A stretch of 64,000 bases of DNA. Origin: Rhodocytophaga rosea (lineage in GTDB: Bacteria > Bacteroidota > Bacteroidia > Cytophagales > 172606-1). This document shows positions 39,481 to 54,632 of this stretch, piece by piece (within the stretch, counting starts at the first letter, position 1; each line of letters starts with the position of its first letter). Position numbers and translations under genes: made by a program. The notes under the pieces were generated by a model. It did no database searches. It was not told the DNA's origin and saw nothing but the letters and a program-made list of their open reading frames with translations. Location: contig NZ_CP048222.1 of NCBI RefSeq assembly GCF_010119975.1, positions 6,734,501-6,798,500 on the forward strand, read 5' to 3'.

Positions 39481-40290
39481 ATGTATAATATAATTTTTTT
39501 GCATATACCTAAAACAGCCGGTACTACTTTTAAACAAATTATTCAAAGAAATTATGCCCGAAATGTGAGATTTGGGTTGGATGGTGAAGAAAAATATATG
39601 ACAGGTCAAAAATTTCGCAATTTGTCATATGAAGAAAGAAATAATATTAAATTATTAGGAGGACATATAAATTTTGGAATGCATAATTCTTTCAATGATA
39701 AGAATAATGTTAAATATATAACTTTTTTGAGGGATCCTATTCAAAGAGAAATATCTTACTATAATTATGTACTAAGAATAAAACAGCATGTACACCACAG
39801 AGAAGTGATTGAAAAAAAAATGACTTTAGAAGATTACATCACTAGCGATATGCATAAAATGCTATTGAATTCACAGACTAAACAAATTGTTGGTATGCAA
39901 GGTGGACTTCAATCCGAGTCTGTAATTTTTAGTGGCAATATTTTGGAGTTAGCAAAAAATAATATTAATGAGCATTTTATATTTTCAGGAATTACTGAAC
40001 AATTTGACAAAGGTATAATACTCTTATATAAAATTTTGAACTGGAAATTTCCATTGTATTATAGATCTCTAAACATTGCCCCTAACAATTTAAAGTATTC
40101 AAAAATATCAGATAAGACTATGCAGTTGATTGCTGACCAAAATCAGTTAGATATTCAATTATATGAATATGTGAAAAATGCTTTTATTAAAGAGATTGAA
40201 CATAATAAAGATTATATAAACAGACATATGCACTTATTGAAAATGTTTAATTATTTGTATAATTTTTATAATAAAATTCATAAAAATTAA
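39481..40290 (+). CDS. Sulfotransferase family 2 protein
   Basis: A 269-residue protein with the PAPS-binding motif HIPKTAGTTFKQII at the very start and the 3'-phosphate motif FLRDPIQREISYY (about 80-95). It matches the heparan-sulfate 2-O-sulfotransferase-like family (Sulfotransfer_2), which sulfates glycans. Family members in bacteria modify surface polysaccharides. Codon use is very AT-rich compared with the neighbours, and the gene interrupts the UxaA-SDR pair, so it was probably acquired. The acceptor is unknown; glycan-modifying genes at 44-51 kb may be partners. Confidence 0.88.
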   Translation: MYNIIFLHIPKTAGTTFKQIIQRNYARNVRFGLDGEEKYMTGQKFRNLSYEERNNIKLLGGHINFGMHNSFNDKNNVKYITFLRDPIQREISYYNYVLRIKQHVHHREVIEKKMTLEDYITSDMHKMLLNSQTKQIVGMQGGLQSESVIFSGNILELAKNNINEHFIFSGITEQFDKGIILLYKILNWKFPLYYRSLNIAPNNLKYSKISDKTMQLIADQNQLDIQLYEYVKNAFIKEIEHNKDYINRHMHLLKMFNYLYNFYNKIHKN

Positions 40291-44396: not shown

Positions 44397-44456
44397 TATA
44401 TTCCGATAAATAAAAAGGGCGCCAAGAATAGCGCCCTTTTTATTTATCGGAATATA
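44397..44456. terminator. 26-bp perfect-stem bidirectional terminator
   Basis: Arms 44397-44422 and 44431-44456 match perfectly over 26 bp with an 8-base loop, and the stem has a GC-rich top (GGGCGC) with A/T flanks. It separates the protease gene from the converging oxygenase gene. Confidence 0.95.
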
Positions 44457-44477: not shown

Positions 44478-45395
44478 TCAAGCAAATAAATTAACAGGTT
44501 TGGATTTATTTATAACCGGAGTTCCTTTTTCGTAGCGGTGTATTAGTTTATCAGGGATAAAAGCTAGATCAGATGCTCTCATAAAATCTCCGAGTAAAGT
44601 ACCGGTACAATAATTATCAATATTCGGTGCTCCATTCTGTGTAACTACATCATCAATATGAACCGTTCTGAAGTCAATACTCCATCTGGTTTTGCCGGAA
44701 GTATTAGGAACAGTAGAGTGCATCTGAGCGCCTGAAAATAAAATAATACCTCCTACTTTACAAATGACACGTATTTGTTGGCTGGTGTCTATAGATTCTA
44801 GGGGCTCTGGCCGTTTACGGGTATCCTTTAATTTTAATGATGCTATTCTCCGACCCTCTGCATACCACTCATGGCAACTGTATCCAACAGAGCTATTCTT
44901 TATTGGATTATCCCAATAATTAGGATGAAATGCCAGGCAATTTTCAGGCTCAATATCAAAAATAGGTATCCACCAGTTAAGTTGACTAAGAGGCGCCGAA
45001 AACCAGGTATCTCTATGAGCCTGAAAAGAATAGGCCAATCCTGTTGTTAAATATTGATCACTTGTTGAAGTGCGCATGCGTGGCAAGTCAAAATATGTTT
45101 TATTTAAATCGCAACCCAATTCTTTCAATATATTTTGTACTAAGTGCCTTGAATGCGGATGGTTAATAAATTTAGGCTTTAGCTCTGATAGAATCTCTGT
45201 GTATTTTTCGGTTGGAATATGATATTGTGCAACGGTTGGATTTACATTTCCAAAATGGTCATAGATCAATTCTCGTGCAAATTCGCATAAAGCCAATGCA
45301 CTTTTACTGGGAGAATATATAAATAATTGCCCATTATATAATAATTGCCGTCTGGCATTATCCTCCATCGCGGAATCGAAGTAGAGTGTATTCAT
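44478..45395 (-). CDS. PhyH-like Fe(II)/2-oxoglutarate dioxygenase
   Basis: A 305-residue protein with the metal triad of the phytanoyl-CoA dioxygenase type: HRD (His127-x-Asp129 in QAHRDTWFS), His226 in GAQMHST, and Arg237 in KTRWSIDFR for 2-oxoglutarate. The two-step motif LNWWIPIFDIEPENCLAFHP lies between. Enzymes of this kind hydroxylate small metabolites or peptides. I chose the ATG at 45395 (MNTLYF), because the upstream extension looks non-coding. It is encoded opposite to the glycan genes that follow, and may act on the same product. Confidence 0.8.
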   Translation of the reverse strand: MNTLYFDSAMEDNARRQLLYNGQLFIYSPSKSALALCEFARELIYDHFGNVNPTVAQYHIPTEKYTEILSELKPKFINHPHSRHLVQNILKELGCDLNKTYFDLPRMRTSTSDQYLTTGLAYSFQAHRDTWFSAPLSQLNWWIPIFDIEPENCLAFHPNYWDNPIKNSSVGYSCHEWYAEGRRIASLKLKDTRKRPEPLESIDTSQQIRVICKVGGIILFSGAQMHSTVPNTSGKTRWSIDFRTVHIDDVVTQNGAPNIDNYCTGTLLGDFMRASDLAFIPDKLIHRYEKGTPVINKSKPVNLFA

Positions 45396-45970
45396 AGCAC
45401 GATATTTACTTGAAAATATCAAAAGCGATTTAGGTTATCTAAAAGGTCGATTTACATTAAGTCAACCTTAAATACTATACTGTATTATAATAAAATTGTT
45501 ATATATAAATACTGAATTTGGTTAATATAAAAATTGTATAAATTATATAAACCAATTACTAAATAAAGACAAAAGGATGATTCAAAAGATTAAAAATCAA
45601 TTAAATATTTAATTGATTATAAAAAAAAGAAGATATTAGTGTCGTAAATAATATTCAAATCATTACTTAAATTATTAACAGTATTCAAGTTTATAAACTA
45701 AAAAATATTAATTAATAAAATTATTTTTTAAGATGATGGCTTTCAAAATAAGCCTGCAAGTTTATAATTGGCACAATGGCTGTGACATATTTTTTAGAAC
45801 ATACTAAGACATTACATATGTTTTTATTATGCACTTCTGGAAAATACGTACAATTGTATAATTTGTTGTGAATTTTATAGCTTATTAAATTTATCTAAAT
45901 ATCAGAATATATTAATAGTGAATAATTACATCTTTTATAAGTTTATCGGCTGCAAAGAGATCTCCAGTAT
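45396..45970. other. AT-rich divergent gap
   Basis: About 575 bases of very AT-rich sequence between two divergent genes. It must contain promoters for both, but I cannot identify a clear one. No hairpin or open frame. Confidence 0.5.
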
Positions 45971-47209
45971 ATGAAACAGTTTCTTACAAAAGTTAGAGGA
46001 AAAACGTTGAACGTTTTAAGAAAAGTAATTTATTACAATCATAAATATAAGCCTAAGGGTTCATTCGTTTCAACAAAAGAATATGTACAGGCACATAAAG
46101 ATTCTGGTGTAAAATATTATGAAATATTTCCCGATCAGGTAACTACGCTTGAGATCCCAACTGATTTGCTCCCTATATTATCTCCTTGGAGTGTTTATGA
46201 TACTTTTGATCCTACACGTGAGAGAACTCTTTATGTAATAACTAATTATGTGGTTTCGGTAGTGCCTAAAGGTAGGCTTTATTCGAATAACATTGATATG
46301 GTAGCTGTGATTACTCAGGATAACTTTTTACTGGCTGATGTTTCCTTTCAATATCATATGCATAGGAAGGCAAGGCCACAGGAAAATAAAGTATTTAAGC
46401 AGAATTATTTCATTGCTCCTAAAAAATATAAAGGTGTAGTATTTAATATGCTCGCTGGAGGGGGCCCAATTATCAATTATGGGCACTGGTTAATAGATGT
46501 TGTACCAAGAATTCATTTATTAAAAAAATCAGGATGGTTTGATAAAGTAGACTGGTTTGTTGTACCAAATTATAGGATTGACTTTCAAAAAGATACTTTA
46601 AGGCTTTTGGGAGTAAGTGCTGATAAAATAATTATAGGTACCGATCAATTACATATTGAGGCAGATACTCTGATTTCTTCTACAGCTCCAAGAGGAGATC
46701 GTAGCTATTTGATGCCAGATTGGGTAGTTGACTTTCATAGAAAAGCTTATATCAACCCCAATATTGATGAAAAGAAATATCCATCTATGATTTATATTAC
46801 GAGGAGAGATGGTAAAGCCCGTAAAGTCCTGAATGAACCTGAATTAATTACTACATTGGAAAGCTATGGATGCAAATGTTTAGAACTGAGGTCTTATTCA
46901 TTCGTGGAAAAAGTAAACTTATTTAATGCTGCTAAAGTGATCATTTCGGTAACGGGGGCAGGCTTGGCTAATGTAATGTATTGTAATAAAAGTGCAAAAG
47001 TGATAGAGATTTTTCCAGATGTTCTTATTCATACTTTTAATTATAATCTAGCAGAGGTTGTTGGCTTAGATTTTTACTTCATGGTTTGCAAAGCTGAAAC
47101 CGGAGCAAAAAATCTTACGGAGGCAAATGATGCGAATATCACAGTGGATATAGTAGCATTAAAAAAACTAATGGATGAAGAAATATTTAAAAAGGTAGAC
47201 TTGTATTAG
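45971..47209 (+). CDS. GT61-family glycosyltransferase
   Basis: A 412-residue protein of glycosyltransferase family 61 (DUF563), with NYGHWLIDVVPRIHLLK, DWFVVPNYR, IYITRRDGKARKVLNE and the late SVTGAGLANVMYCNKSAKVIEIFP block. The family transfers xylose or N-acetylglucosamine in eukaryotes and various sugars in bacterial surface glycans; the donor here is unknown. No membrane helix is visible, so it acts in the cytosol before export. It is separated by large AT-rich gaps on both sides. Confidence 0.88.
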   Translation: MKQFLTKVRGKTLNVLRKVIYYNHKYKPKGSFVSTKEYVQAHKDSGVKYYEIFPDQVTTLEIPTDLLPILSPWSVYDTFDPTRERTLYVITNYVVSVVPKGRLYSNNIDMVAVITQDNFLLADVSFQYHMHRKARPQENKVFKQNYFIAPKKYKGVVFNMLAGGGPIINYGHWLIDVVPRIHLLKKSGWFDKVDWFVVPNYRIDFQKDTLRLLGVSADKIIIGTDQLHIEADTLISSTAPRGDRSYLMPDWVVDFHRKAYINPNIDEKKYPSMIYITRRDGKARKVLNEPELITTLESYGCKCLELRSYSFVEKVNLFNAAKVIISVTGAGLANVMYCNKSAKVIEIFPDVLIHTFNYNLAEVVGLDFYFMVCKAETGAKNLTEANDANITVDIVALKKLMDEEIFKKVDLY

Positions 47210-47879
47210 AGATAAAGAGGGTCATTTTAATATACTTCCTAATGATGTATAGAATTTAATTGCTAGTGGCATATTTAATACGATAGATCAACCACAAAGT
47301 ATTGCATATAAATTATAATTTTATTAAGGAAATAAATGTATTTTTTTGGGTAATTATTAAAACATTCTAAGAGTTTAAAATTGATATTATATAATTTGTA
47401 ACTCACTCTTATGTTATTTTTGTTAGATAAACTAAATAGCTTTATATATTATAACACAATCTCTTATCTTTATTCCTGGTATTTGATAAATAGTTTTTCT
47501 AAATACTACTAATTGTGTGGTTGTTCATTAATATTAATTTTTGTTAAAATTATAATAATTCCGGGTTACATATACCTATCACAAAGTATGTATGAATAAT
47601 ACACATGTAAGTTTTAATGAGTATAATAAAGTTTAAAAAATTAATAAGTTTAAACGAAATATAGTAGAGAACTAATTATAAACTTGCAATTTCAGTTAGA
47701 TATAAGGTGAGTTTTCATCTAAGTAATTTTATACTTAGAATTTTACCTTGAGCGATTAAATAATAACCTATCGGTTTTTTATAACATTGAAAGTGGTCTT
47801 TACCCAGTAAATTGTTTTTAATTGTACTATTCATAATATTTACTTAATTATTTTATAACTAATATTTTACTAATCAAGT
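47210..47879. other. AT-rich gap without gene
   Basis: About 670 bases, strongly AT-rich, no supported open frame on either strand and no hairpin. Its length and composition are like those of recently acquired DNA or a decayed gene, but I see no family remnant. Confidence 0.5.
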
Positions 47880-49109
47880 ATGAAATGTCGCTTTTGTGAA
47901 CATCAATTAGAGCATACCTTCGTAGATCTGGTAAGTAGCCCTCCAGCTAATTCTTTCTTGACTCAACAGAACCTATTAGAGCCGGAAATGTATTTCCCTT
48001 TAAGATTATTTACCTGTGATAATTGCTTTCTTGTCCAAATTGATGAATACAAAAAAGCACAAGAAATTTTTAGCAGTGATTATGTTTACTTTTCTTCCTA
48101 TTCTAAAAGCTGGCTGGCTCATGCGAAAAAATATACTGAGCATATGATCAGTCGTTTTGGGTTCAATGAGCAATCTTTTATTATGGAAATAGCCTCTAAT
48201 GATGGTTATTTACTACAATATTTTAAGGAGAAACATATTCCGGTTTTAGGTATTGAGCCTACCTTAAATACAGCAGAGGTTGCCCGGTTAAAAGGAATTC
48301 TTACTATTTCTGATTATTTTGGAGAAAGTCTTGCAAATAAATTATTGATTGAAAATATGACAGCTGACCTATTAATTGGAAATAATGTGTTAGCGCATGT
48401 ACCTGATATCAATGATTTTGTAGCGGGATTGAAAATTGTATTGAAAGAGCAAGGAATTATCACTATGGAATTTCCGCATCTGCTAAAGTTGATTGAGCAT
48501 GTTGAATTCGATACTATTTATCATGAGCATTTTTCATATTTATCCTTCAATACTGTAAGTAAAATCTTTGCATCTCATGGCCTAGAAATGTTTGATGTAC
48601 AGGAGATTACTACACATGGAGGCTCTTTACGCATCTTTGCCAAACATTTTGAAGATAAGAGTAAGAGTATTAGTCCTTCGGTTGAATTGTTGTTAAATAA
48701 GGAGAAAGAGGCTGGTATCACAACTTCTGCCTATTACGATGACTTCCAGCAAAAAGTAGATATGATTAAATATAATTTTTTAGATTTTGTTCTTCTCCAA
48801 AGAAAAAACAATAAAAAGGTAATTGCTTATGGAGCTGCAGCAAAAGGCAATACTTTTTTAAACTATTGCGGTATAAAAGGTGATGATCTGATTCAATTTG
48901 TAGTAGATGCTTCTCCTTATAAACAAAATAAATTTTTACCTGGCAGCCATTTACCTGTGTATTCTGAAGAAAGAATTAAAGAATATAAGCCTGACTACAT
49001 AATTATACTCGCCTGGAATTTGAAAGATGAAATTATGGAGCAATTAAGCTATATTAGGGAATGGAATGGAAAATTTGTGATGTGTATACCTCAAATGAAA
49101 ATACTATAA
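47880..49109 (+). CDS. Sugar C-methyltransferase (TylC3/NovU-like)
   Basis: A 409-residue SAM-dependent methyltransferase with the N-terminal zinc motif MKCRFC and FTCDNC (Cys3, Cys6, Cys46, Cys49), the SAM-binding pattern MEIASNDGYLLQYF (about 100), HYEHFSYL-like text (YHEHFSYLS) and a C-terminal domain starting AYGAAAKGNTFLNYCGI. This arrangement is diagnostic of enzymes that add a methyl group to C3 of nucleotide-linked keto-sugars. It is followed by a DegT aminotransferase gene after 32 bases. The pair suggests a branched amino or methylated sugar. Confidence 0.9.
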   Translation: MKCRFCEHQLEHTFVDLVSSPPANSFLTQQNLLEPEMYFPLRLFTCDNCFLVQIDEYKKAQEIFSSDYVYFSSYSKSWLAHAKKYTEHMISRFGFNEQSFIMEIASNDGYLLQYFKEKHIPVLGIEPTLNTAEVARLKGILTISDYFGESLANKLLIENMTADLLIGNNVLAHVPDINDFVAGLKIVLKEQGIITMEFPHLLKLIEHVEFDTIYHEHFSYLSFNTVSKIFASHGLEMFDVQEITTHGGSLRIFAKHFEDKSKSISPSVELLLNKEKEAGITTSAYYDDFQQKVDMIKYNFLDFVLLQRKNNKKVIAYGAAAKGNTFLNYCGIKGDDLIQFVVDASPYKQNKFLPGSHLPVYSEERIKEYKPDYIIILAWNLKDEIMEQLSYIREWNGKFVMCIPQMKIL

Positions 49110-49141
49110 TTTTATTTACCTAATTTCTGAGTCTATATCCT

Positions 49142-50266
49142 ATGAAAAAAATTCCTATCTATCAACCCTCTGTTACCGAACTGGAAATATCATATGCAGT
49201 AGATGCTGTAAAAAATGGATGGGGGGAAAATTGTTATGCTTATATCAAACGTTTTGAAAAAGATTTTGCTGCCTATACCGGCTCGTCCTACTCTTTAGCA
49301 ACTTCCTCTTGTACAGGCGCAATTCATTTGGCTTTAGCTGCAATGGGTGTTAAGGCTGGCGATGAAGTAATCATGGGTGATATAAATTGGATAGCTTCTG
49401 CAGCGCCAATTACGTATTTGGGAGCTAAACCAGTATTTGTCGATGTATTAGAAGATAGCTGGTGTATCGATCCATCAAAAATAGAAGCAGCCATTACTGA
49501 GAAAACTAAAGTAATTCTTGCAGTAGATTTATATGGCAACTTAGCTGAAATGGATCAAATTGTAGCCATTGCAAAAAAACATAATTTGTATGTGCTTGAA
49601 GATGCTGCTGAAGCATTAGGTTCAGTATTCAGAGGCAAAAAGGCAGGTAGTTGGGGTGATATAGGTGTGTTTTCTTTTCATGGAGCTAAAATTATGACTA
49701 CAGGTGAAGGTGGTATGCTTGTTACGGATAATGCAGCTTTAATGGAAAGAGTAAGAATATTATCTGACCATGGTAGAGATCCTAAAGTAAATAGAACTTT
49801 CTGGATGGCAGAATTAGGTTATAAATATAAGATGTCCAACCTGCAAGCGGCCATGGGCTGTGCACAGCTTGAAAGAGTAGATGAATTAGTTAATAAGCGG
49901 CGGGATATTTTTAATTGGTATACTGAATACTTAGCTGATCTGCCCGGAATTGTTCTGAATCCTGAGCCATCCTACACTATCAATTGCTACTGGATGCCTA
50001 CTATTGTTTTTGACAAAGCCCTTAATATAGAGGCACATGAGGTAATTAATTATTTGAAAGAACAGAATATAGATAGCAGACCATTCTTTTATCCCCTTTC
50101 TTCTTTACCAATGTTTGAAAAAGCAGAAGAAAATAAGGTGTCCTATAATCTTTATAAGAGGGCTCTTAATTTACCAAGCAACTTCAGTTTAACCCGTGAA
50201 GATATTAAGCAGGTGTGTCAGGCAATAAGGACGTATGTTAATAAAGTATTAGTTCCAGTAAATTAA
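49142..50266 (+). CDS. DegT/DnrJ/EryC1-family aminotransferase
   Basis: A 374-residue PLP-dependent aminotransferase acting on keto-sugars. VLEDAAEALGSVFRGKKAGSWGD has the Asp that binds PLP, and Lys183 in FSFHGAKIMTTGEGG is the Schiff-base residue. The enzyme probably makes an amino sugar from a keto intermediate; alternatively it catalyses a dehydration, as in the colitose-type group. It shares a transcript with the C-methyltransferase upstream and with the 2OG oxygenase downstream (37-base gap). Confidence 0.92.
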   Translation: MKKIPIYQPSVTELEISYAVDAVKNGWGENCYAYIKRFEKDFAAYTGSSYSLATSSCTGAIHLALAAMGVKAGDEVIMGDINWIASAAPITYLGAKPVFVDVLEDSWCIDPSKIEAAITEKTKVILAVDLYGNLAEMDQIVAIAKKHNLYVLEDAAEALGSVFRGKKAGSWGDIGVFSFHGAKIMTTGEGGMLVTDNAALMERVRILSDHGRDPKVNRTFWMAELGYKYKMSNLQAAMGCAQLERVDELVNKRRDIFNWYTEYLADLPGIVLNPEPSYTINCYWMPTIVFDKALNIEAHEVINYLKEQNIDSRPFFYPLSSLPMFEKAEENKVSYNLYKRALNLPSNFSLTREDIKQVCQAIRTYVNKVLVPVN

Positions 50267-50303
50267 CTTTAAACGACTAACAACAAATTTTATACTCAAT
50301 ATA

Positions 50304-51092
50304 ATGGAAACAACTGTAATAACTAAACAACTAAACCCTACTGGTATCTTTGATGATTCAAAGTATGCAAAGCTTGCCTTAGATAATAGAGAAAAATATC
50401 AAACAGCTAATCCTTTTCCCCATATTGCTTTAGATAATTTTATTGATGAGCCATTAGCCAAAGCGTTGGCTGCTGAAATTCCAAAGCCTGGTGATATCAG
50501 CTGGGTTGCTACTGATAATGCTGGAAATAGAAGAAGATATCAGCATGATGAGCGGAAATTTACTCCTCTTGTCAGAATGATGCTCCGTGAGATGAATTCT
50601 CGCCAGTTTTTACTCTTTTTAGAAACCCTTACAGGTATAGAAAATCTTATACCGGATCCTTATTTTATTGGTGGAGGGGTACATTCTTCTGGAACAGGCG
50701 ATTTCCTAAATGTACATGCAGATTTTAACTGGCATCATAAACTTCATGCCCATAGGAGAATTAATGCACTTCTATATTTAAATGAGAACTGGCAGGAGTC
50801 TTGGCATGGGGGGCTTGAATTCTGGAATACAGAAATGACACAGGCTGTTAAAACATATTCGCCTATTATTAATAGATTAATTGTATTTAACACCACACAG
50901 AACTCTAATCATGGTGTTCCTACGCCATTAGCATGCCCTGAAGATGTTCGTCGTATTACTTTAAATTTATATTATTATACTACAAAGCGGGAGGATGAAT
51001 TAGCTGACCCCCATTTTACAAAGTATAAAACTATCAATTCTCCTTTTGCAATGGGGCTTGGGGAAGACTATCGTAAATCAGGTGAAGAATAA
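50304..51092 (+). CDS. 2OG-Fe(II) oxygenase (prolyl hydroxylase-like)
   Basis: A 262-residue oxygenase with the iron triad His138-x-Asp140 (FLNVHADFNWH), His203 (SNHGVP) and Arg at 216-217 (VRRITLNLYY) in a jelly-roll fold (RRINALLYLNENW). It resembles 2OG-Fe(II) oxygenases that hydroxylate amino acids or sugars. It is the third gene of the methyltransferase-aminotransferase unit, so a role in finishing a modified sugar or amino-sugar conjugate is the simplest guess. Two hairpins follow. Confidence 0.85.
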   Translation: METTVITKQLNPTGIFDDSKYAKLALDNREKYQTANPFPHIALDNFIDEPLAKALAAEIPKPGDISWVATDNAGNRRRYQHDERKFTPLVRMMLREMNSRQFLLFLETLTGIENLIPDPYFIGGGVHSSGTGDFLNVHADFNWHHKLHAHRRINALLYLNENWQESWHGGLEFWNTEMTQAVKTYSPIINRLIVFNTTQNSNHGVPTPLACPEDVRRITLNLYYYTTKREDELADPHFTKYKTINSPFAMGLGEDYRKSGEE

Positions 51093-51140: not shown

Positions 51141-51266
51141 TAGAGAGAATTAATATTGATCTCTCTTGTTTTTAGGGATATATTTGAGACAAATGAGGTA
51201 AGAATTCTATTCAGACTTATTATTGGTCCATGCTTTTTCATATAAAGCAGATTCCTATATTCTATT

Positions 51267-51315
51267 GCCAAATGCCGCTGATATACTGAATTTCAGTATA
51301 TCAGCGGCATTTGGC
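51267..51315. terminator. Perfect 24-bp palindrome, likely terminator
   Basis: Bases 51267-51290 are the exact complement of 51292-51315 around one central base. It lies between converging transcripts (the oxygenase and a lipoprotein gene), which fits a bidirectional terminator, though it has no long T-run and could instead be a protein-binding site. Confidence 0.6.
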
Positions 51316-51332: not shown

Positions 51333-51941
51333 TTATATGACATCTAGGGCTGCCAGAATAATGATTACCAGACCTACTGTAACGCCGATTGCACCCAGAG
51401 TATATAATAATCCGCCGTCGGTAATCAGAGATCCGATAATAATCAGAGCAAGGCCTAATACACCAATCAGAATACCAGTACGGATATCCGGGTCCAGAGC
51501 ATTTGCTTTTTTATCCTTTCTGATATCAAATTTTTTGTGAGCTTTCTCCACTTTCTTAACTGCTGCCTTTAATGCCATTTTTACAAACGTAGACTTCGCT
51601 TTTTTTACAGCTTTTGTAGCTTGTACTGCGTTGGCCGTTTTAGATTGTTCCAGTTGAAGCTGTTTTGCCGTTTCATAGACTGAGGGTGGTGTAGAAGTAA
51701 GTCTGGATTGAGTAGAAGCAGCGGCTGGCTCATCAGTGATTTCAGTTGATGTAGCTGTTAACTCGTCATCATCCGAAAGTGTAGCCGATGAAAGCGTTGC
51801 TTCGGTAACTGGCATCTGTTGCGGGAGATCAGAAGTAGAAACCTGGGCAATTTTTGGCGAACTACAAGCCAGTTGAAAAAATAACACGGCTACTGCTCCG
51901 TATACAGAGAGTTGTTTAGATGAAGTAGGAAAATATTTCAT
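51333..51941 (-). CDS. Lipoprotein with paired C-terminal helices
   Basis: A 202-residue lipoprotein (lipobox FFQLAC, Cys26) with a Ser/Thr/Pro-rich middle, a Lys-rich helix (FVKMALKAAVKKVEKAHKKF) and two hydrophobic C-terminal helices (about 152-200). It is a paralogue of the gene at 52046, with the same order of parts and similar Lys-rich helix. No domain family is recognised. The two may act together in the envelope. Confidence 0.7.
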   Translation of the reverse strand: MKYFPTSSKQLSVYGAVAVLFFQLACSSPKIAQVSTSDLPQQMPVTEATLSSATLSDDDELTATSTEITDEPAAASTQSRLTSTPPSVYETAKQLQLEQSKTANAVQATKAVKKAKSTFVKMALKAAVKKVEKAHKKFDIRKDKKANALDPDIRTGILIGVLGLALIIIGSLITDGGLLYTLGAIGVTVGLVIIILAALDVI

Positions 51942-53219: not shown

Positions 53220-54632
53220 ATGGCACAATCGGTAAACCACTTAAATCTGAAAAAACTTTTTGGGTATTTTAAAACCGCCATTAAGGGAGAAGAAAAAGAA
53301 TACACTTCTGGTAATATCAATAAAGCCATTTTTATGCTGGCCGTGCCCATGATCCTGGAAATGGTGATGGAATCGCTGTTTGCCGTGGTCGACGTATTTT
53401 TTGTAAGTCGTCTGGGGGTGAATGCAATCGCTACAGTGGGGCTCACAGAGTCGGTGCTTACCATAATTTATGCGGTGGCGATCGGTTTAAGTATGGCCGC
53501 TACAGCGATGGTAGCCAGGCGGACAGGTGAGAAAAATCCGGAAGCAGCCTCGGAGGCTGCTATTCAGGCATTGATCATTGCAGTAATAATCGGTTCTGTT
53601 ATCGGGCTCACAGGTGTTATTTTCGCTGAAGATATTTTACGCCTGATGGGAGGCGCCCCTGAACTGATCAGTGAAGGTAAAGGCTATACCCGGATCATGC
53701 TGGGCAGTAATGTGATCATTATGTTGCTCTTTCTGAACAATGCTATTTTCAGGGGAGCCGGTGATGCTTCTATTGCCATGCGTTCATTATGGCTGGCCAA
53801 TGCGCTTAACATTGTCTTATGTCCGGTGTTAATATTTGGATTAGGGCCTATTCCTGGTTTGGGTATTGAAGGGGCAGCATTGGCCACTACTATCGGCCGG
53901 GGAAGCGGCGTATTATACCAGTTCTATATGTTATTCAGCAAACGATCAGTAATCCAACTGAACCGATCAAACTTTAAATTTAATCCAGACCTGATTGGGA
54001 AAATGCTCAATGTTTCGGCAGGAGGAATGGGCCAGTTTCTGATCGAATCGGCCAGCTGGGTTTTTCTGGTACGTATCATTTCTGTGTTTGGCAGCGATGC
54101 CCTGGCAGGATATACCATCGCCATCCGGATCATTATTTTTACGATATTGCCTTCCTGGGGATTATCTAATGCAGCCGCTACCCTGGTGGGACAAAATCTG
54201 GGTGCCGGGCAACCAGAACGAGCAGAAACATCTGTCTGGCGGGCGGCATTTTATAATATGCTCTTTCTGGCTTTTATCTCGGTTGGTTTGTTTGTGTTTG
54301 CCGGGATCATTATTGAGATATTTACTACAGAAACCAATGTACAACAATACGGAATTCAGGGGTTGCGGTACATTTGTGCCGGATATATCTTTGCAGCCTA
54401 TGGAATGGTCACCAGTCAGTCGTTTAATGGAGCTGGAGATACCAGAACACCTACGGTAATTAATCTGCTCTGTTACTGGGTACTCCAGATTCCACTGGCG
54501 TATCTGCTGGCTGTTACACTGGATTTGGGTCCGGCAGGGGTGTTTATTGCCATAGCTATAAGTTTTTCTATGCATGCCCTGGTGAGTATTGTCTGGTTCC
54601 GCCGGGGGAAATGGAAGCTGGTGGAAATTTAG
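53220..54632 (+). CDS. MATE-family efflux transporter
   Basis: A 470-residue polytopic protein (12 membrane segments) of the multidrug and toxin extrusion family, exporting compounds in exchange for Na+ or H+. AVPMILEMVMESLFAVVDVFFV starts the first helix pair, and SFNGAGDTRTPT and NNAIFRGAGDASIA are the internal repeat motifs. The substrate is unknown. A heptanucleotide inverted repeat starts directly after the stop codon. Confidence 0.93.
   Translation: MAQSVNHLNLKKLFGYFKTAIKGEEKEYTSGNINKAIFMLAVPMILEMVMESLFAVVDVFFVSRLGVNAIATVGLTESVLTIIYAVAIGLSMAATAMVARRTGEKNPEAASEAAIQALIIAVIIGSVIGLTGVIFAEDILRLMGGAPELISEGKGYTRIMLGSNVIIMLLFLNNAIFRGAGDASIAMRSLWLANALNIVLCPVLIFGLGPIPGLGIEGAALATTIGRGSGVLYQFYMLFSKRSVIQLNRSNFKFNPDLIGKMLNVSAGGMGQFLIESASWVFLVRIISVFGSDALAGYTIAIRIIIFTILPSWGLSNAAATLVGQNLGAGQPERAETSVWRAAFYNMLFLAFISVGLFVFAGIIIEIFTTETNVQQYGIQGLRYICAGYIFAAYGMVTSQSFNGAGDTRTPTVINLLCYWVLQIPLAYLLAVTLDLGPAGVFIAIAISFSMHALVSIVWFRRGKWKLVEI

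Follow-up and report, generated by a model that had tools for sequence, protein, structure and literature searches.

A block of five genes in the bacterium Rhodocytophaga rosea (assembly GCF_010119975.1, a single contig of 8.98 Mb, NZ_CP048222.1) has, in our judgement, about an even chance of making a nucleoside diphosphate (NDP)-activated 4-amino-3-C-methyl hexose, probably a 6-deoxy sugar, and of acting as a module that tailors a surface glycan. The block lies in a stretch of 64,000 nucleotides (forward strand, 6,734,501 to 6,798,500; hereafter the window, numbered from its first letter) and encodes a PhyH-like Fe(II)/2-oxoglutarate (2OG) oxygenase, a family 61 glycosyltransferase (GT61), a sugar C-methyltransferase (C-MT), a DegT-type aminotransferase, and a second Fe(II)/2OG oxygenase. 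The five open reading frames (ORFs) are all present where the original prediction, made from the sequence alone, had placed them, and all belong to the families named there (Pfam). These families, the packing of an operon, the active-site motifs, and the recurrence of C-MT and DegT genes behind RmlC genes can be read from the sequences. The core pair of C-MT and DegT represents two well-supported steps and the oxygenases a rarer addition, so that known families stand here in an uncommon arrangement.

According to the proposed mechanism, a nucleotide-activated 4-keto sugar would be supplied from elsewhere in the genome and methylated at C3 by C-MT, after which DegT would turn the enabling 4-keto group into an amine, yielding the NDP-4-amino-3-C-methyl hexose. 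This sugar, or a neighbouring one, would be transferred by GT61 to a growing glycan, and the two oxygenases may add hydroxyl groups to the sugar, to its N-substituent, or to the acceptor or carrier. The positions C3 and C4, the order of the steps, the action of GT61 and the oxygenases on the same sugar, and the surface location are what we infer. 3-C-methyltransferases of this type need a 4-keto group beside the carbon that is methylated, and methylation followed by amination makes sense as consecutive steps because a C4 aminotransferase would consume that same keto group. Sibirosamine, a 4-methylamino-3-C-methyl sugar, is a precedent for such a product.

The C-MT protein matches the Pfam models Methyltransf_13 (73.8 bits) and Methyltransf_14 (205.2 bits), and its architecture, composed of Methyltransf_13, a SAM domain, and Methyltransf_14, is that of NDP-sugar 3-C-methyltransferases. 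Its nearest solved chains are TylC3 (256.7 bits), two sugar 3-C-methyltransferases (221.3 and 210.4 bits), and TcaB9 (200.3 bits). The similarity to TylC3 and TcaB9 extends over the full length, including the zinc-binding and C-terminal domains and the YHEH stretch (IYHEH in the alignment with TylC3), which we take to be catalytic; by this resemblance, C-MT would methylate C3 of an NDP-4-keto sugar. TylC3 and TcaB9 act on deoxythymidine diphosphate sugars of antibiotics, whereas the substrate here is presumed to be a glycan donor. In turn, the aminotransferase matches Pfam DegT with 399.6 bits, its best solved relatives are perosamine synthase (288.5 bits) and a "Sugar aminotransferase" (7b0m, 273.4 bits), and the region of the pyridoxal phosphate-binding lysine, a residue whose role is presumed here, aligns with that of 3bn1. 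Its nearest relatives, GDP-perosamine synthase among solved proteins and LegC and PseC among NCBIfam models, suggest amination at C4, although the scores fall below the curated cut-offs, no named equivalog applies, and this DegT is paired with a C-methyltransferase. A TylC3/TcaB9-type C-MT next to a perosamine-synthase-like DegT thus bears out the C3-methyl and amino sugar chemistry that had been predicted.

The same pair recurs in distant genomes. Another Cytophagales genome (G077; G-numbers denote genomes of the order and family sample) carries rfbF, rfbG, rmlC, C-MT (66% identical), and DegT (68%) in a run cut by the contig end, and an alphaproteobacterial plasmid of Peteryoungia desertarenae carries rfbF, rfbG, an rmlC-like gene, C-MT (48%), and DegT (54%). 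On a plasmid of Brachyspira hyodysenteriae, an rmlC-like gene, C-MT (58%), and DegT (51%) are followed by an acetyltransferase gene; its counterpart on another plasmid of this species matches the PglD_N and hexapeptide models and, therefore, fits a 4-amino sugar, by an analogy with PglD that we assume. A run in Pacificitalea holds rfbF, rfbG, rfbC, and DegT (49%) and no C-MT. In G023, an SDR gene, rmlC, and DegT (73%) stand behind a sugar transferase gene and a WecG-type gene in a glycan locus, while the closest relative of the second oxygenase (75%) directly follows two glycosyltransferase genes on another contig. At E 1e-100, DegT is matched in two of the 50 genomes searched, its own included, the cut copy of G077 falling below this threshold. 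C-MT is matched at E 1e-130 in 47 of the 390 genomes of the order, and stretches of 4–21 kb around it were read in 24 of these (the genome of the window being represented by its second C-MT). RmlC lies directly upstream of C-MT, within ~0.4 kb, in 15 of the 24 (in G332, upstream of the second copy), 10 have rfbG in the same run, eight have DUF4910, four GT61, three PhyH, and one an adjacent DegT; this last count leaves out G122, where a DegT of 30% identity lies 6 kb from C-MT.

The two oxygenases and GT61 are tied to this core less closely. The PhyH-like protein scores 25.7 bits against Pfam PhyH (cut-off 22) and keeps the HxD...H...R motif, with H127, D129, H226, and R237 invariant among its relatives; with its HRD intact, it is expected to have a centre of the hydroxylase rather than the halogenase type. 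A single-sequence prediction of its fold was unsuccessful (mean pLDDT, predicted local distance difference test, 31.4). An assignment to the sporadic carbohydrate cluster 2OG oxygenases (TIGR04324) was rejected (23.7 bits against a cut-off of 150, over 40 residues only). Relatives at E 1e-10 occur in eight of the 390 genomes of the order and one of the eight of the family, the own genome included. In three of the four other genomes with both genes over threshold (G018, G263, and G332), PhyH lies 2.7–3.0 kb from C-MT; random placement would give this with P ~6e-8, a value computed after the fact and uncorrected for kinship, two of the three sharing a genus. The three cassettes also hold SDR, rmlC, and DUF4910 genes, to which G263 and G332 add rfbF, a class III aminotransferase, a second C-MT-like gene, and a DRL-type oxidoreductase. 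A large cassette with all these genes and C-MT is common to G332, G263, and G245 (loci L040, 3568–19901; L041, 2807–15832; and L111, 3781–12456), PhyH being found in the first two and SDR not being seen in G245. Moreover, 13 plasmid records match the PhyH-like protein, and four were read for context. The relative on the Sinorhizobium americanum plasmid (42%) has a flippase gene at a distance of 3.8 kb and a family 2 glycosyltransferase gene at 5.3 kb, and the stretch has at its edge a class III aminotransferase that is 59% identical to that of the G004 cassette. The link between PhyH and glycan genes is real, but it is not exclusive.

The second oxygenase matches Pfam 2OG-FeII_Oxy_3 (61.8 bits), its H138, D140, H203, and R217 (HxD...H...R) are invariant in the alignment, and its nearest solved chains by profile include OGFOD1, EGLN, and prolyl 4-hydroxylases. 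Relatives at E 1e-45 are present in 16 of the 390 genomes of the order, all but the closest at most 48% identical, and at E 1e-58 only the own genome is matched among 395 of the class sample. A relative of 46% identity belongs to a cyanobacterial polysaccharide locus, and a paralogue in the own genome (39%) adjoins a PMT-type gene (PMT and PMT_2 models) near a family 2 glycosyltransferase gene. The context of this paralogue and that of PhyH in Sinorhizobium slightly favour a tailoring module for a glycan. In three genomes (L043–L045), paralogues of 39–42% identity are flanked by ORFs of ~555 and ~250 residues; in the window's genome, the only one scanned, these ORFs are matched by models of the PMT type and of family 2 glycosyltransferases. 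GT61 scores 95.1 bits against Pfam Glyco_transf_61, and its relatives lie 0.5 kb from C-MT in G302, 2.9 kb in G004 of the same genus (51% identical), and 11–12 kb in G263 and G332. Fe/2OG enzymes that act on carbohydrates are known, e.g., orthosomycin and hygromycin oxygenases and KdoO, some of them with the PhyH fold. The block's oxygenases would be alike in this chemistry, although no sequence match to these enzymes was returned, the solved chain nearest to the PhyH profile being CytC3 (E 0.0069).

With regard to the supply of the donor, a glucose-1-phosphate cytidylyltransferase (rfbF) is encoded 0.54 Mb from the block (450.1 bits, cut-off 300.25), and the genome holds two RmlC genes. This rfbF stands at ~6.23 Mb in a locus with rmlC, an SDR, a DRL-type oxidoreductase, two glycosyltransferases, a hexapeptide transferase, and a flippase, and its rfbF, SDR, and rmlC genes are the likely suppliers of the block. 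The SDR is 61–64% identical to those of G263, G332, G018, and G023; it may not be a dehydratase because SSCSMYG takes the place of the TTDK or STDE of rfbG and RmlB. None of the five proteins of the block, nor DUF4910 or the class III aminotransferase, has a match within 20 kb of this rmlC. The rfbF, SDR, rmlC, and DRL genes (L150, 8613–12443) belong to a glycan locus of the same genome that has no C-MT within 20 kb. The original prediction also proposed a look for glycan export genes nearby; these were not found, as no export family (Wzx, Wza/Wzc, or ABC) was detected in the 52 of the window's 54 ORFs (non-overlapping, at least 100 residues) covered by the Pfam scan, where a MatE transporter at 53220 comes closest to an export gene.

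Several observations weigh against an aminated, C-methylated glycan sugar as the product. No CDP-glucose 4,6-dehydratase passes its cut-off in the genome, the best candidate being an RmlB-like gene (110.6 against 278.45 bits) near an RmlA-like gene, both named by resemblance, and the 52 scanned ORFs of the window include no donor-synthesis family in addition to lacking export families. DegT passes no NCBIfam cut-off (LegC, 319.2 against 420; PseC, 273.7 against 423.5), and its scores do not cleanly part C3 from C4 enzymes, according to labels that we assume: the PseC-type 2fn6 (C4) reaches 123.6, ArnB 167.1, and QdtB (C3) 173.3 bits, and C4 types other than perosamine synthase span 123.6–179 bits. 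This spread counts slightly against the proposed mechanism. The five genes occur together in no other stretch read, including the 24 C-MT neighbourhoods. In a quick tree of C-MT, in which forks 92 and 81 are not starred for support, the window's gene groups with those of G004, G201, G302, and Xanthocytophaga flavus (family Rhodocytophagaceae in the tree output), copies that have DUF4910 or GT61 neighbours, and the DegT-linked copy of G077 falls elsewhere; therefore, a reshuffling of modules is weakly suggested. Furthermore, no C-MT lies near PhyH in four of the seven other genomes of the order: in G032 it is 745 kb away, and in G207, G257, and G296, which have no C-MT over threshold, PhyH is 6.5–8.6 kb from a GT4-like gene adjoining an rmlC-like gene. 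PhyH relatives on plasmids of Phyllobacterium (43%), Aminobacter (27%), and Pseudomonas (29%) stand in apparently non-glycan settings, as judged from annotation or first residues. Thus, the unusual decorated sugar or glycoconjugate originally suggested holds in part: C-MT with DegT recurs across phyla and parts of the block recur in glycan loci, whereas the full set was not seen elsewhere. The opposite expectation, that relatives carry these genes separately among unrelated neighbours, likewise receives a mixed answer, with GT61 and PhyH beside C-MT in a minority of neighbourhoods and PhyH also found without it.

These observations bear on three other explanations. It is possible, though somewhat unlikely, that only C-MT, DegT, and the second oxygenase form a functional unit, to which GT61 and PhyH, its neighbours in an AT-rich accessory region, are unrelated, with PhyH acting on a small molecule or another substrate. 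The opposite strand of PhyH, the 670 bp that set GT61 off, the four genomes with PhyH and no C-MT nearby, and the three plasmids with non-glycan settings agree with this, whereas the closeness of PhyH to C-MT in G018, G263, and G332, with the P value and the limits given above, and the distances of GT61 from C-MT in four genomes speak for a wider association. That the block is the remnant of a larger polysaccharide locus, cut off from rfbF, SDR, and rmlC and now decaying or idle, appears quite improbable: the long AT-rich gaps, the likely supply genes 0.54 Mb away, and the larger cassettes of G263, G332, G018, and G245 would suit such a history, but the five reading frames are uninterrupted, the residues of the active sites are conserved, and perfect inverted repeats stand at both ends. 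We regard as very improbable a module for protein hydroxylation and glycosylation, in which the second oxygenase would modify, like a prolyl hydroxylase, a protein to which the sugars are attached. Its profile matches and the own-genome paralogue beside a gene matching protein-mannosyltransferase models are in keeping with this idea; nevertheless, its closest relative follows two glycosyltransferase genes, another belongs to the cyanobacterial polysaccharide locus, and no protein acceptor gene was identified at the block.

The features of the block are collected in Table 1. The five genes are adjacent, as had been predicted, but do not make up a single operon: only C-MT, DegT, and the second oxygenase are tightly packed (32 and 37 bp) and look like one operon, GT61 being a separate gene and PhyH divergent. 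The spacings from the S8 peptidase gene onwards are 89, 548, 670, 32, and 37 bp. The place of the PhyH-like gene was predicted correctly, while its start is probably ATG 45395 rather than TTG 45422, since 305 residues from the former align with seven relatives. Moreover, the inverted repeats at both convergent ends define the stretch from PhyH to the second oxygenase as bounded, and the one at the PhyH end is a probable bidirectional terminator. Sigma-70-like promoters gave no signal (37 sites against 37.9 in shuffled sequences), a Bacteroidota-type promoter pattern, as known from general background, has one match, at 51156, 3' of the operon, and no Rfam family was found in 36000–58000.

Table 1. 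Features of the five-gene block and its borders (window positions)
Feature	Position	Strand	Basis and remarks
Inverted repeat I1, 26-nt perfect arms	44397..44456		Between convergent S8 peptidase and PhyH-like genes; repeat search
PhyH-like Fe(II)/2OG oxygenase, 305 aa from ATG 45395	44478..45395	-	Pfam PF05721; alignment
AT-rich divergent gap PhyH-like/GT61, 548 bp, 20.8% GC	45423..45970		Composition
GT61 glycosyltransferase, 412 aa	45971..47209	+	Pfam PF04577
AT-rich gap 5' of the three-gene operon, 670 bp, 21.3% GC	47210..47879		Composition
Putative sugar 3-C-methyltransferase, TylC3/TcaB9 type, 409 aa	47880..49109	+	Pfam, solved relatives, alignment
DegT-type sugar aminotransferase, 374 aa, C4 type by nearest models	49142..50266	+	Pfam, solved relatives
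Second Fe(II)/2OG oxygenase, prolyl-hydroxylase-like, 262 aa	50304..51092	+	Pfam, profile search
Inverted repeat I2, 24-nt perfect arms	51267..51315		Between operon end and convergent gene 51333-51941; repeat search, terminator scan

Acquisition of the block, as first proposed from its AT-rich surroundings, is plausible. Among the window's 25 intergenic stretches of at least 150 bp, the two gaps have the lowest GC (next, 22.6%; median, 30.6%), but they are not exceptional in length, three others being longer. By the GC content of third codon positions, the five genes rank third to ninth from the bottom among the 54 ORFs. Both features fit acquisition, but the neighbouring S8 gene, ranking sixth, is also low. 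The window has no tRNA, neither recombinase nor transposase families were found among its 52 scanned ORFs, and no clean empty site was seen. In the sister species G004, nothing matches PhyH, DegT is not matched at E 1e-100, and the second oxygenase has a relative of only 30%, while C-MT (66%) and GT61 lie together at another place than the block site; the RlpA-like and S8 genes of G004 (62% each, separated by a 131-residue ORF) precede a nucleoside transporter gene instead of the block. These flanks are rearranged, as indicated by the different neighbourhood of dnaN, and so offer no clean empty site. Elsewhere in the window, a sulfotransferase gene (39481-40290) with the lowest GC of the 54 ORFs (25.3%) sits between altronate-dehydratase-type and SDR genes that directly adjoin each other in G004 and G006; it was probably gained here or lost there. 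A phage origin of the block was rejected: PHROGs gave nothing for PhyH and GT61, a 31.1-bit match of unknown function for C-MT, an aminotransferase family for DegT, and 29.8 bits for the second oxygenase, and a PhyH relative could not be confirmed on any viral contig. Relatives of the second oxygenase (31–41%) in six of 50,697 phage records count against this rejection. A role in defence was also discarded, since in PADLOC DegT reached ~24 bits against SspA/DndA and the second oxygenase 41.8 bits against a CRISPR-associated 2OG oxygenase, the other three giving nothing.

Related gene sets have been described in part. The ddhA-ddhB-3-C-methyltransferase genes of Sinorhizobium meliloti, as outlined in a section of PMC4053727, likewise combine a 3-C-methyltransferase with NDP-4-keto-6-deoxyhexose genes. 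The same holds for the pathway model of the surface sugar virenose in Coxiella, which, in the relevant passage of PMC3539893, reduces the 4-keto group, whereas DegT is placed to aminate it here. DUF4910 (CA_C2195) has modified-carbohydrate neighbourhoods with an epimerase, a nucleotidyltransferase, a sugar methylase, and a glycosyltransferase (a section of PMC4000134), the same kinds of enzymes as in the eight C-MT neighbourhoods with DUF4910; yet the window's scanned ORFs lack DUF4910, and a 2OG oxygenase is not among the genes in that section. No description of the five-gene combination was found in the openly licensed PMC literature searched on these enzymes and sugars. Within the glycan reading, a bolder and decidedly unlikely version is that of a CDP-hexose being converted into a branched and oxidised amino sugar along a pathway not yet on record, through an epimerase-type SDR and RmlC, C3-methylation, C4-amination, and oxidation by both oxygenases. 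The latter would oxidise the sugar itself, possibly with ring or orthoester closure like that of the orthosomycin enzymes.

C-methylated amino sugars are mainly familiar as components of antibiotics. The RmlC/C-MT/DegT module in three phyla suggests that they are also building blocks of surface sugars, and two Fe/2OG oxygenases beside this module would extend the range of reactions known for the surface sugars of bacteria and provide defined enzymes to assay.

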